This document shows, one piece after another, positions 57,990 through 61,937 of a stretch of 64,000 nt of DNA. Source of the DNA: an uncultured Hellea sp. (GTDB lineage Bacteria; Pseudomonadota; Alphaproteobacteria; Caulobacterales; Maricaulaceae). Where the stretch lies: positions 186,001 through 250,000 of the forward strand of contig CALLMD010000001.1 in the NCBI GenBank assembly GCA_938007935.1, read 5' to 3'. The stretch's first letter is position 1, and the number at the start of each line of letters is the position of its first letter. The position numbers and the translations under genes were made by a program. The notes beneath the pieces were generated by a model. The model saw only the letters and a program-made list of their open reading frames with translations. It was not told the origin of the DNA and ran no database searches.

Positions 57990-59201
57990 TTATGCTGCCC
58001 TTTGGACTTGTAGTTTTTGTTTGGATTGATTGTTACTTGAACAGAACAACCTCAAAAGGATGAAGCCTAGCAGACCAGATGCAACTGAGCCCATTAAGAC
58101 ACCAAGTCGTACCGCATTAAGCAATTCATCACCTTCAAAAGCGAGTGTTCCGATGAACAGGCTCATAGTGAAACCGATGCCGGTTAGGCAGGCGACACCA
58201 TATAGTTGGCACCAATTTGTATCTTTTGGTAGCTTGGCTAAACCAAACTTTACGGCGATCCATGATAGCGAGACGACACCGATCTGTTTTCCTAGGAATA
58301 ATCCCAGAGCGATACCAAGTGGTAGTGGGGCTAATAGGTCCGCGAGGCTAACGCCTTTCAATGAGACACCTGCATTTGCAAAAGCAAATAATGGAAGAAT
58401 AAGGAAGGCTACCCATATGTGAAGGCCGTGTTCTGCGCGGTGTAATGGTGAACTATCCTCAGGCGTCTTCCCCTTCAAAGGAACAGCGAGCGCAGTAACA
58501 ACCCCTGCTAATGTCGCATGTACCCCTGATTTCAAAACACAAGCCCACACAAAGAGACCGATCAAGGCATAAGGGGTAATGCGTGTGACTCCTATTCGGT
58601 TTAATATGATTAGACCCAGCGTGCCCAATCCACCCCAACCGAGTGCGACGAGAGACAGGTCTTGTGTGTAAAAAAGCGCAATAATGATTATGGCAGCAAG
58701 GTCGTCAATAATGGCGACTGCGAGTAAAAGTATCTTTAAAGATACAGGAACTCGTGAGCCAACAAGGGCTAAAACACCAAGTGCGAAGGCAATGTCAGTC
58801 GCGGCCGGAATAGCCCAGCCTTGGATTGCTATTGGGTTGCCCCAATTTAGAAACACGTAAATAGCAGCAGGCGCAATTATGCCGCCAAGAGCTGCAAATA
58901 AAGGTAAAGCCGCCTTATCAAGGCTGGAAAGCTCACCTTCTAGAACTTCTTTTTTTATCTCAAGGCCAATGAGAAAAAAGAAAATCGCCATCAGGCCATC
59001 ATTGATCCAAAGCAAGAGGGGTTTTGCAATCTGAAAGCTTCCGAACTGAACCTCAACAGGTGTAGATAGAAAGCCCGAATACAACCCTGCGAGGGGTGAA
59101 TTATTCGCCATGAGCGCAAGCAATGCGACGACCATTAGAATAAAACCCGCTGAGGTTTCAAGCCTTAAGAAATCTTGTATTTTTGTCACAATGCGCGTCA
59201 T
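57990..59201 (-). CDS. nhaA: Na+/H+ antiporter NhaA
   Basis: 403 residues (E. coli NhaA is 388), with twelve membrane helices. Conserved residues: the ion-binding aspartate pair in LAVAIIDDLAAIIIIALFY (DD of helix V), the helix IV aspartate in PAATDIAFALGVLALVG, NDGLMAIFFFLIGLEIKKEV and the C-terminal LTGIGFTMSLFIGTLAF. It expels Na+ (or Li+) in exchange for protons, driven by the proton motive force, and matters at high salt and alkaline pH. Start ATG 59201. It is 75 bases behind an unrecognised gene on the same strand and likely shares its transcript. Confidence 0.97.
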   Translation of the reverse strand: MTRIVTKIQDFLRLETSAGFILMVVALLALMANNSPLAGLYSGFLSTPVEVQFGSFQIAKPLLLWINDGLMAIFFFLIGLEIKKEVLEGELSSLDKAALPLFAALGGIIAPAAIYVFLNWGNPIAIQGWAIPAATDIAFALGVLALVGSRVPVSLKILLLAVAIIDDLAAIIIIALFYTQDLSLVALGWGGLGTLGLIILNRIGVTRITPYALIGLFVWACVLKSGVHATLAGVVTALAVPLKGKTPEDSSPLHRAEHGLHIWVAFLILPLFAFANAGVSLKGVSLADLLAPLPLGIALGLFLGKQIGVVSLSWIAVKFGLAKLPKDTNWCQLYGVACLTGIGFTMSLFIGTLAFEGDELLNAVRLGVLMGSVASGLLGFILLRLFCSSNNQSKQKLQVQRAA

Positions 59202-59276: not shown

Positions 59277-59747
59277 TTAGAGTAGGTAAGCTTTGCGAGC
59301 CTTAATTAGGGATAAGGCTCTAGGGTGTGGAGGTGTCGATTTTTGACCGAGAGTGGTCAGTTTTGAAATCGCTTGGTTCATCGCGTTATGAATCATAGCT
59401 CTGTGCTTGTTTATCCGTTCAGCTGCAGCGATAAGCTCATTTGCTGCACTATCGATGTCATCTTCCTCGAAATGGACTTGTGCTTGATTAAGATGGCTTT
59501 CAACAATGCTTGAGTCTAAGCGGTTAAGCCTATCGTCAGGACCAAGGCAACTAGAATGAGCTCCGCCTTCATCCTCCCAACGCTGTCTTTCAATGCTTTC
59601 ATAACAAATCTCCTTCGGTTGAAATAGGGTTTCAGGTTTTTGTTTGAGAGTATCGACATGAACAATTGAGCGGCTCTGACCGAGGGGAGACGGCTCATCT
59701 ACCGAAACTTCATCAAAGAAAGAGGGGGAAGTTATCTCAAAAGTCAT
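59277..59747 (-). CDS. Unrecognised 156-residue protein of the nhaA unit
   Basis: From ATG 59747 with a ribosome site (GAGGAATT). An acidic, low-complexity N-terminal half (MTFEITSPSFFDEVSVDEPS) precedes a helical C-terminal half (SHLNQAQVHFEEDDIDSAAN, LIAAAERINKHRAMIHNAMN) and a short basic end (HPRALSLIKARKAYLL). No membrane segment, no cofactor motif. It lies between the OxyR-like operator and nhaA, transcribed with both small neighbours. Function unknown. Confidence 0.6.
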   Translation of the reverse strand: MTFEITSPSFFDEVSVDEPSPLGQSRSIVHVDTLKQKPETLFQPKEICYESIERQRWEDEGGAHSSCLGPDDRLNRLDSSIVESHLNQAQVHFEEDDIDSAANELIAAAERINKHRAMIHNAMNQAISKLTTLGQKSTPPHPRALSLIKARKAYLL

Positions 59748-59768: not shown

Positions 59769-59984
59769 TTAGAACCAAGTCGTGCGGATATTGGTGCCCG
59801 ACGCGACTGCTAGCCTGCGAGAGCGGCGGCGACGTTTAAATGGTGTTGTAGCAAAGCTTGCTTTAACCATTTGGCTCGGTACATGTTTAGTCTTCACAGT
59901 CTTAACTTTAGCCTCAGTGTTAAAACGGCTAAGCAGGCCATCAAGTTTCTGTGGAAGTATTTGACTTTGTCTGACGCGAAACAT
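59769..59984 (-). CDS. Unrecognised 71-residue basic protein of the nhaA unit
   Basis: From ATG 59984 (MFRVRQSQILPQKLDGLLSR), with an excellent ribosome site (AAAGGAGA). A longer reading from 60008 has no such site. Rich in Lys and Arg with a patch FKRRRRSRRLAVASG; the protein may bind nucleic acid. No family recognised. It is the first gene on the minus strand behind the OxyR-like operator (60041-60077), so the best candidate for direct control by the divergent LysR regulator. Confidence 0.6.
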   Translation of the reverse strand: MFRVRQSQILPQKLDGLLSRFNTEAKVKTVKTKHVPSQMVKASFATTPFKRRRRSRRLAVASGTNIRTTWF

Positions 59985-60040
59985 TTTTATCTCCTTTGTT
60001 AACGCCATTTGTATTTAGGAAACTTCTTGTCATAGTTAAA

Positions 60041-60077
60041 ATATAAATATACTATTCTTATCATAGAATAAATTTAT
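60041..60077. promoter_or_regulatory. OxyR-type operator between the divergent units
   Basis: ATAT-N7-CTAT-N7-ATAG-N7-TTAT, 14 of 16 bases of the OxyR consensus ATAG-N7-CTAT-N7-ATAG-N7-CTAT, with exact seven-base spacing throughout. It lies 11 bases before the LysR-type gene start and 56 bases before the basic small gene, the right place for autoregulation and divergent activation. Confidence 0.65.
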
Positions 60078-60088
60078 ATATAAGTTTT

Positions 60089-60994
60089 ATGAAACCAAGT
60101 TTACGTCAACTTCAATATTTAATTGCCATTGCTGAAACAGGCACCATGAGTGAAGCTGCAAAGCGTACTTTCGTCAGTCAACCTAGCCTCTCTATTCAGC
60201 TCAAAGACATGGAAGATCAGCTTGGCGCATCACTTGTCGAACGCGGACGAAAAGGTGCAATCTTGACGCCACTTGGCATGGAAGTTGTTGCTCGTGCTCG
60301 AATTATTTTAAGACAAATTGAAGATCTGCGGTCCCTATCTCGTGAGGCATCTGGAACATTAGCAGGCCGAGTGCGTCTAGGTGTCTTGCCAACCGTTGGT
60401 CCTTATTTACTACCCCAAGCGACCCGTAAACTCCATAAAGATTATCCCGAATTACGGCTAACAGTACGCGAGGAGCGTACAGTGGATTTAGAAGCACATT
60501 TATCTGATGGGCGGTTTGATATGATTATTTCAACTCCCGAAGATCATCCTGGAACACGTTCTCATGCAATTGTTAAAGAAAACATTTATATTTGTGTGGC
60601 GCCAGATGACGTATTGGCAGAAGAAAGAAAACCGATAAATATATCCGAACTTAAAGACCGTGAATTTTTGACATTGGGCTATGGTCATAAATTTGCAACA
60701 GTAGTCAATAACTTAGCGGGAATAGCAGGCGCGACCACATCCGGAACTTATGAAGGCACGTCCCTTGATGCCATTCGGCAAATGGCCTCTATGGGTGAAA
60801 CGATTGCCGTACTCCCAAGCCTATACGCTATATCTGAAGCTAAACGCGACCCTCAACTTATTGTACGCCAAATCATTCATCCCCTCGCCCAAAGGCAAAT
60901 TTCTTTGATATGGCGAGATACATCACCTATGGGAGCAAAATATAATAAAATAGGTGATGTATTTGAGGACATTGCTCAGGATATCATGTCTTAA
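60089..60994 (+). CDS. OxyR-like LysR regulator lacking the sensing cysteines
   Basis: 301 residues. The helix-turn-helix (TMSEAAKRTFVSQPSLSIQL, about 19-38) and linker fit OxyR, as does SLSREASGTLAGRVRLGVLP. In E. coli OxyR the redox cysteines sit in GHCLRDQAMGFC. Here the aligned segment is GHKFATVVNNLA, so C199 is Lys and C208 is Ala, and the protein has only one cysteine (YICVAP) elsewhere. It therefore cannot use the known disulfide switch. It faces an OxyR-type operator and the nhaA unit, so it may answer to another signal, such as salt or pH (compare LysR-type NhaR). Start ATG 60089. Confidence 0.88.
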   Translation: MKPSLRQLQYLIAIAETGTMSEAAKRTFVSQPSLSIQLKDMEDQLGASLVERGRKGAILTPLGMEVVARARIILRQIEDLRSLSREASGTLAGRVRLGVLPTVGPYLLPQATRKLHKDYPELRLTVREERTVDLEAHLSDGRFDMIISTPEDHPGTRSHAIVKENIYICVAPDDVLAEERKPINISELKDREFLTLGYGHKFATVVNNLAGIAGATTSGTYEGTSLDAIRQMASMGETIAVLPSLYAISEAKRDPQLIVRQIIHPLAQRQISLIWRDTSPMGAKYNKIGDVFEDIAQDIMS

Positions 60995-61211: not shown

Positions 61212-61937
61212 GTGTTTAAATACAAACACATAACACGCCAGAGAGAGGCTCAGAAGCAGATTGCTAAAGTCGTAGCGATTGGCTCGGCTATGGCCATATT
61301 GCTGTCTTCACCCGCCACCGCGCAAGATAAAACGACCCCTACAGACGGTTTAAACCTCAATATTCCTACAAATGGCGTCGGATATGAAGGCTTAACTCTA
61401 GATATTGGCACACAAATTGAGCTACCTCCAGAAAGTATAGGATCAACATTATTCAAGCTTGATTTGACCAATACAGATTGCCTCACAGGCGGTGAAAATT
61501 GTCTACGCAGAGAAGAGACATTAAATCTCGGCTATCAAAAGGCCTTTACAAGCGTAAGTACGAAAGGTCTGGATCTCTCACTCACCCCCAGAGCTGCATT
61601 GCGCTTTAATGATGAAAGCTCAAGCGCCGTGGTCGGCGCTGTCGTTGAAATCGGAGAAGATCTGCGCAAGGGCTCCAACCTTGAAAATAACACGTGGTAT
61701 TTCTTTGCGGGGGCTGACGCCGAAGCGTTATCTTACTCGCCCAGTTCCATTGGCCGCTTAACAAGTGGTCAATTCCACCTTCAAGACCGTATCATTGTCG
61801 GCGACGCGCAAGCTGGTCTTGGCTATCGAATTGGTAATGCGGATTTGTCTCTCTCTTACCTACGCCGTGAAGCAACGGCTGAAGATTATAGCTTTAACGA
61901 AGACGCAGCGGCGCTCTCCTTTACCTGGAAACGCTAA
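61212..61937 (+). CDS. Predicted outer-membrane beta-barrel protein
   Basis: 241 residues starting with GTG 61212. A basic N-terminus and signal peptide (VVAIGSAMAILLSSPATAQD, cleavage after ATAQ) are followed by alternating strands (GLTLDIGTQIEL; TLNLGYQKAFTSVSTKGLDL; LDLSLTPRAALRFND; YFFAGADAEALSYS; AQAGLGYRIGNADLSLSYLR; DAAALSFTWKR). Two cysteines (DCLTGGENC) may form a disulfide. Strand number (about eight to ten) fits a small barrel, possibly of lipid A deacylase or OmpA-like type; I cannot settle it. Unlike typical barrels it ends in KR and not in Phe. Confidence 0.65.
   Translation: MFKYKHITRQREAQKQIAKVVAIGSAMAILLSSPATAQDKTTPTDGLNLNIPTNGVGYEGLTLDIGTQIELPPESIGSTLFKLDLTNTDCLTGGENCLRREETLNLGYQKAFTSVSTKGLDLSLTPRAALRFNDESSSAVVGAVVEIGEDLRKGSNLENNTWYFFAGADAEALSYSPSSIGRLTSGQFHLQDRIIVGDAQAGLGYRIGNADLSLSYLRREATAEDYSFNEDAAALSFTWKR

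Follow-up and report, generated by a model that had tools for sequence, protein, structure and literature searches.

OxyR recognizes operators of the form ATAG-N7-CTAT-N7-ATAG-N7-CTAT, and the residues T100, T129, H198 and R266 are those that we take to form its peroxide pocket. In cyanobacteria, the regulators NdhR and CmpR stand alongside CcmR. Among the systems described so far, the OxyR-Like protein of Magnetospirillum gryphiswaldense lacks a sensing cysteine, has been proposed to respond to another inducer and has the site GATA-N9-TATC (PMC5308003), a single-cysteine OxyR has been described in Deinococcus (PMC2225504), NhaR of E. coli is the inducer of NhaA (PMC6307784), and CcmR exerts LysR-type control over inorganic-carbon uptake in cyanobacteria (PMC3401165). 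Among the matches listed in the open literature (titles and the starts of abstracts, with subscription journals mostly outside), none described the control of NhaA, SbtA or carbonic-anhydrase genes by a regulator of the OxyR branch.

The regulator gene examined here, from a bacterium akin to the marine genus Hellea, lies in a window of 64,000 nt, by which we mean the whole stretch of DNA that was analysed, and is flanked by an operator-like site and a set of divergent genes:

57990-59201, minus strand: nhaA, Na+/H+ antiporter (TIGR00773, E 7.9e-143)
59277-59747, minus strand: second divergent ORF, 156 aa, without a Pfam match and with one NCBIfam match far below the cut-off
59769-59984, minus strand: small divergent ORF, 71 aa, with an Arg-rich tail and a TTWF end, without a Pfam or NCBIfam match
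60012-60039, minus strand: possible divergent promoter, TTAACT (60034-60039), 16 bp, TAAATA (60012-60017), weak and found by eye
60032-60077, plus strand: putative extended clade operator, 46 bp, beginning with the conserved distal ATAG (60032-60035)
60041-60077, plus strand: putative OxyR-type operator, ATAT-N7-CTAT-N7-ATAG-N7-TTAT, 14/16, kept in relatives
60089-60994, plus strand: LysR-type regulator of the OxyR branch, 301 aa, with K at 199 and A at 208

In the same window, a ribonucleotide reductase gene faces nhaA, and the regulator is followed by a frame at 61212-61937 (plus strand) with similarity to the outer membrane protein LpxR (PF09982, 27.8 bits, cut-off 26).

The regulator has the domain composition of a LysR-type protein, with an N-terminal HTH_1 domain (PF00126, 67.0 bits, cut-off 26.6) and a LysR_substrate domain (PF03466, 129.7 bits, cut-off 28). 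Its best NCBIfam model was OxyR (NF008361), at 189.6 bits and thus below the 329-bit cut-off, which is not discriminating here because none of 41 genomes of the order exceeds it. The top solved structure by sequence was the OxyR chain 4x6g, and the regulator grouped with the OxyRs apart from other LysR regulators (support of 98, in quick trees with a few very long outgroup branches). Its identity is 31% with OxyR of E. coli and 27% with the canonical OxyR from the same genome. The possibility of an NhaR orthologue was rejected: E. coli NhaR fell with the outgroups, on a long branch, and the DNA-binding part of the regulator was 21% identical to E. coli NhaR versus 42% to E. coli OxyR. An alignment with OxyR of E. 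coli shows T100, T129, H198 and R266 to be conserved in the protein and both redox cysteines to be missing, C199 being replaced by K and C208 by A, in agreement with the initial annotation, which had read Lys and Ala at the two sensing positions. The sole cysteine is C169. A structure predicted from 8 sequences had a mean pLDDT of 53.8, too poor for checking the pocket.

Relatives of this regulator were collected from 398 genomes of the order, where 102 matches of at least 47% identity (counted by eye) all fell in two of the five families; among the matches listed from 385 sampled genomes of the class, the best from outside the order had 46% identity. The clade discussed below consists of 58 loci, 55 of them taken from these 102 matches (E of at most 6e-76) and three from a separate search, with a partial 53% match containing stops (G331:C58) omitted. 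Its named loci include Hellea balneolensis, which NCBI places in Maricaulales. Several genomes carry two or three clade paralogues, and one locus (L205, genome G907) has the operator and nhaA together with a regulator frame that is apparently broken. Position 199 is R in 37 members, K in 19, A in one and G in one, and position 208 is A in 57 and S in one, while the pocket positions are largely kept (R266 in 56, H198 in 52, T129 in 50, and T or S at 100 in 57). For comparison, 33 loci of the order were termed canonical OxyR, three of which (L071, L076 and L080) keep C199 and have F at 208.

The initial annotation had proposed that the signal changed while the DNA code was retained. That the regulator responds to something other than oxidation of C199 and C208 is well supported, because position 199 is R or K in 56 of the 58 members and position 208 is A in 57, four members are free of cysteine, and a canonical OxyR with both cysteines is present in the genome. 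That the signal changed away from that of OxyR is unproven. In the quick tree, the clade (100) was nested in a wider group (99), the remaining sequences of which for the most part carry H or R at 199 together with C208. The canonical sequence L161 adjoined this wider group (97), a placement that suggests that C199 was lost first and C208 later. However, a tree with all canonical OxyRs as one clade was not rejected (AU p 0.385), so that the cysteines may be an acquisition of OxyR and not a loss in the clade. The trees kept 89 and 84 rows, with near-copies and some outgroups omitted.

Since C169 is kept in 49 of the 58 members, sensing through this residue is possible for most of them, and the regulator might still be a redox sensor acting via a sulfenic acid or an intermolecular disulfide at C169. 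There are precedents in the Deinococcus OxyR, which functions with one cysteine (PMC2225504), and in LsrB, which employs cysteines at other places (PMC11975290). The single cysteine of the Deinococcus protein is, however, the conserved sensing one (PMC2225504), which is missing from this regulator, and the four cysteine-free members of the clade are all still found beside NhaA. We regard redox sensing through C169 as quite improbable.

Allowing up to three mismatches, the OxyR template had a single match in the window, at 60041-60077 (plus strand), with two mismatches and the boxes ATAT, CTAT, ATAG and TTAT; the four tetranucleotides with N7 spacing and 14 of 16 bases reported in the initial annotation were thus recovered by the template search. 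The site ends 11 bp before the start codon of the regulator gene. The match alone is not striking, because 22 of 100 shuffles of the window gave at least one match at this threshold (mean 0.26); in dinucleotide shuffles of the 150 bp upstream of the regulator gene, 14/16 was reached in 0 of 200. Across the genome there were 15 template sites with up to three mismatches and equally 15 for a reversed-pattern control, indicating that the bare 16-letter template is not specific. The genome count was accordingly rejected as sole evidence, and the case for the operator rests on the comparison across relatives.

Among the clade loci, the best template match in the upstream 150 bp beat 200 shuffles at p of 0.05 or less in 50 of 58 (p was above 0.05 in the other 8), and the same test was passed by 18 of the 33 canonical OxyR loci of the order. 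The best match lay at most 35 nt from the assumed start in 56 of the 58. Mean fits for boxes 1 to 4 over the 58 loci were 2.8, 2.6, 3.7 and 3.3 of 4 letters; boxes 3 and 4 fit the template better than boxes 1 and 2, indicating that the proximal half carries the signal. The consensus of 40 chosen clade sites was ATAGtTcaAATatAAa.at.cTaT..tt...ATAG.tt.aa.cTAT, and that of 20 chosen canonical sites was AAT.GATtgTttct......g..ATAG..aa..tCtAT; both are optimistic, because the rows were chosen by hand (40 of 58 clade and 20 of 33 canonical loci) and weak or site-less loci as well as near-copies are among those omitted. In these chosen loci, the proximal ATAG-N7-CTAT half is common to clade and canonical sites and the distal half is different, so that the DNA code said to be retained is shared in its proximal half and departs from the canonical one in its distal half. 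The window site follows the same division, its 14/16 match to the OxyR motif comprising a conserved proximal half and a distal half unlike the canonical one. In addition, ATAG or ATAA occurs 9 bp before box 1 in 30 of the 40 chosen clade sites. The window has ATAG at 60032, and this conserved element (60032-60035) falls outside 60041-60077 on the distal side. A 46-bp pattern that includes it had one match with up to three mismatches in the genome, at 60032-60077, and none for the control; since the pattern was drawn partly from this same site, the match is expected and only its uniqueness is informative.

Sites of this kind were also found away from the regulator locus. At up to two mismatches, the 46-bp pattern had 13 matches in 59 genomes of the family, most of which precede a clade regulator, and in one genome (G153) a second site with 0 mismatches lies on another contig before a delta-carbonic anhydrase gene (PF10563, E 1.3e-65). 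Upstream regions of delta-carbonic anhydrase genes were scored with a weight matrix from 13 close loci at 29 of 30 loci (L239 could not be scored). The best site was unreached in 100 shuffles, which keep base make-up only, in 12 of the 29 regions, and 11 of these 12 sites have one orientation. Three of the 12 (45.4, 41.0 and 24.7) exceed the best non-operator background position seen (21.5), and the other nine are weaker. No such site was found before the delta-carbonic anhydrase gene of the window's genome (L224, 30 of 100 shuffles as good), though the regulator is present, or before that of G348 (L212, 72 of 100 shuffles as good), though this genome holds a regulator with 72% identity.

These results bear on whether the site is an A/T-rich promoter region, with the -10 and -35 elements of two divergent promoters, that resembles an OxyR box by chance. 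The equal genome counts for template and reversed control agree with such an origin, as do the G+C content of the window's upstream region (26%, the lowest of the 58) and the TATACT and TTAACT elements that overlap the site by eye. Against it, the spacing of the boxes next to the start is kept in relatives, the upstream region has a G+C content of at least 45% in 25 of 58 loci, and the operator occurs unlinked before delta-carbonic anhydrase genes. A chance resemblance is highly improbable.

The neighbourhood of the regulator was compared between clade and canonical loci. NhaA was a neighbour in 33 of the 58 clade loci (on the divergent side in 28 and downstream in 5), SbtA in 9, beta-carbonic anhydrase in 8 and SulP in 6; two of the 8 beta-carbonic anhydrases had no more than 33-34% identity with the query. 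On representative neighbours, Pfam confirmed SbtA, SulP and carbonic anhydrase. At least one of the four was present at 47 of 58 clade loci versus none of the 33 canonical OxyR loci of the order, in a count where upstream flanks ranged from 0.5 to 4.4 kb (1.5 kb being usual for canonical loci) and where the clade loci are not independent because they are related. With flanks set equal, at 1.5 kb before the start and 2.3 kb counted downstream from it, the counts were 45 of 58 versus 0 of 33. None of the four was found beside canonical OxyRs fetched from the phylum. None was present at 11 of the 58 clade loci. At L135 (genome G252, one of these 11 loci) and at L218, the clade regulator is immediately preceded by a delta-carbonic anhydrase gene of the same orientation. 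Outside the clade, 6 of 28 OxyR-like loci without C199 (12 and 16 from two sets) had such a neighbour: NhaA at L115, L118, L178 and L184, SbtA at L189 and SulP at L114. A second set of clade regulators is divergent from a beta-carbonic anhydrase and SulP gene pair (L029, L089, L095, L097 and L101). An amino-acid permease gene follows nhaA at L140, L139, L010, L012, L141, L132 and L133 and is absent from this position in the window.

At 38 of 58 clade loci, versus 2 of 33 canonical loci, a small divergent ORF was found that encodes an Arg-rich tail and has a sequence resembling a ribosome-binding site. Changes at its third codon positions are, in two sets of relatives, about twice as frequent as at first and second positions, which is consistent with a translated gene. 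This ORF lies across the operator from the regulator in the window, L013, L028, L027 and others; three forms of it were tested and had no Pfam match, and its C-terminus in close relatives is a TTWF, STWF or SSWF-like motif. A RWEDEGG or RWESEGG-like motif of the 156-aa ORF is, by eye, common to the small ORFs of L028, L020 and L038.

A canonical OxyR that might share the site, a possibility raised in the initial annotation, is indeed encoded elsewhere in the genome, on contig 8 (C8:15282-16175), with both cysteines and a 14/16 site before its own start. The five genome sites with up to two mismatches to the template include this one, one before katG (15/16) and that at 60041-60077; one genome therefore holds two OxyR-branch regulators with similar sites. 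The operator could belong to the canonical OxyR, with the regulator gene and nhaA under peroxide control and the adjacent regulator a bystander or competitor. The 14/16 and 15/16 sites of the canonical OxyR and katG are in line with this, the proximal half-site is identical in both consensus sequences, and in relatives the 46-bp pattern, at two mismatches, also falls in two katG promoters and near a Dps-like gene, so that some overlap between clade pattern and OxyR sites remains. On the other hand, the distal half is different and the 46-bp pattern matches one place in the genome only, the transporters are beside none of the 33 canonical OxyR loci, and the operator accompanies the gene lacking the sensing cysteines in 50 of 58 clade loci. 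We consider ownership of the operator by the canonical OxyR to be unlikely.

We are moderately confident, from sequence comparison, that the regulator is instead an OxyR relative without a redox role whose targets are Na+/H+ and inorganic-carbon genes as well as its own gene. Because clade regulators adjoin nhaA, sbtA, carbonic anhydrase and SulP genes, the regulon is probably concerned with Na+/H+ balance and inorganic-carbon uptake. A tetramer of the regulator would bind the operator at 60032-60077, repress its own gene and activate the divergent genes, namely the small Arg-rich ORF, the 156-aa ORF and nhaA. The by-eye minus-strand promoter TTAACT-N16-TAAATA would start transcription near 60004, which would put the proximal dyad at about -66, where LysR-type regulators usually have their recognition site; an automatic promoter search chose another -10 than TAAATA. 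The pocket that in OxyR receives peroxide would probably accommodate a small ligand as the signal, perhaps an anion bound by the Arg or Lys found where OxyR has Cys199. The basic side chain at this position and the transporters encoded nearby suggest bicarbonate or a similar small anion, or else a ligand tied to pH or Na+, and clade regulators may respond to ions or inorganic carbon rather than to peroxide; this step, like bicarbonate itself, is a guess. More tentative, and rather doubtful as a whole, is the extension to the entire clade, in which the peroxide pocket would sense bicarbonate or another pH- or Na+-linked anion, the regulon would comprise NhaA, SbtA, SulP and the beta- and delta-carbonic anhydrases, and the small Arg-rich protein would be part of the module. 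Here a well-studied redox switch and relatives that lack its cysteines exist side by side in nature, with most of the pocket and part of the DNA site retained in the latter, which makes signal change in LysR regulators directly testable. If the regulon is as proposed, it points to a possible control of bicarbonate, sodium and pH in bacteria of this group.

Compared with OxyR of E. coli and P. aeruginosa, the window regulator has an OxyR chain (4x6g) as its top solved relative, keeps H198, R266, T100 and T129 and is preceded by a site with ATAG-N7-CTAT geometry, but it lacks C199 and C208, lies beside ion and bicarbonate transporters and has a distal half-site unlike the canonical sites of the order. 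Like OxyR-Like of M. gryphiswaldense, it is an alphaproteobacterial OxyR homologue without a sensing cysteine, a likeness drawn by description and not by sequence; OxyR-Like is reported to act on pdh and magnetosome genes (PMC5308003). LsrB of Rhizobiales is likewise a second OxyR-related regulator beside a canonical OxyR, but senses redox state by C144/C273 and C236/C244 (PMC11975290), whereas the window regulator has C169 alone; the two are set apart by description. With CcmR the proposed system shares LysR-type control of inorganic-carbon uptake (PMC3401165), again by description and not sequence, and the hosts of CcmR are photoautotrophs. Finally, NhaR of E. coli is also a LysR-type regulator whose gene adjoins nhaA, but it falls outside the OxyR branch, and nhaR is located downstream of nhaA on the same strand.
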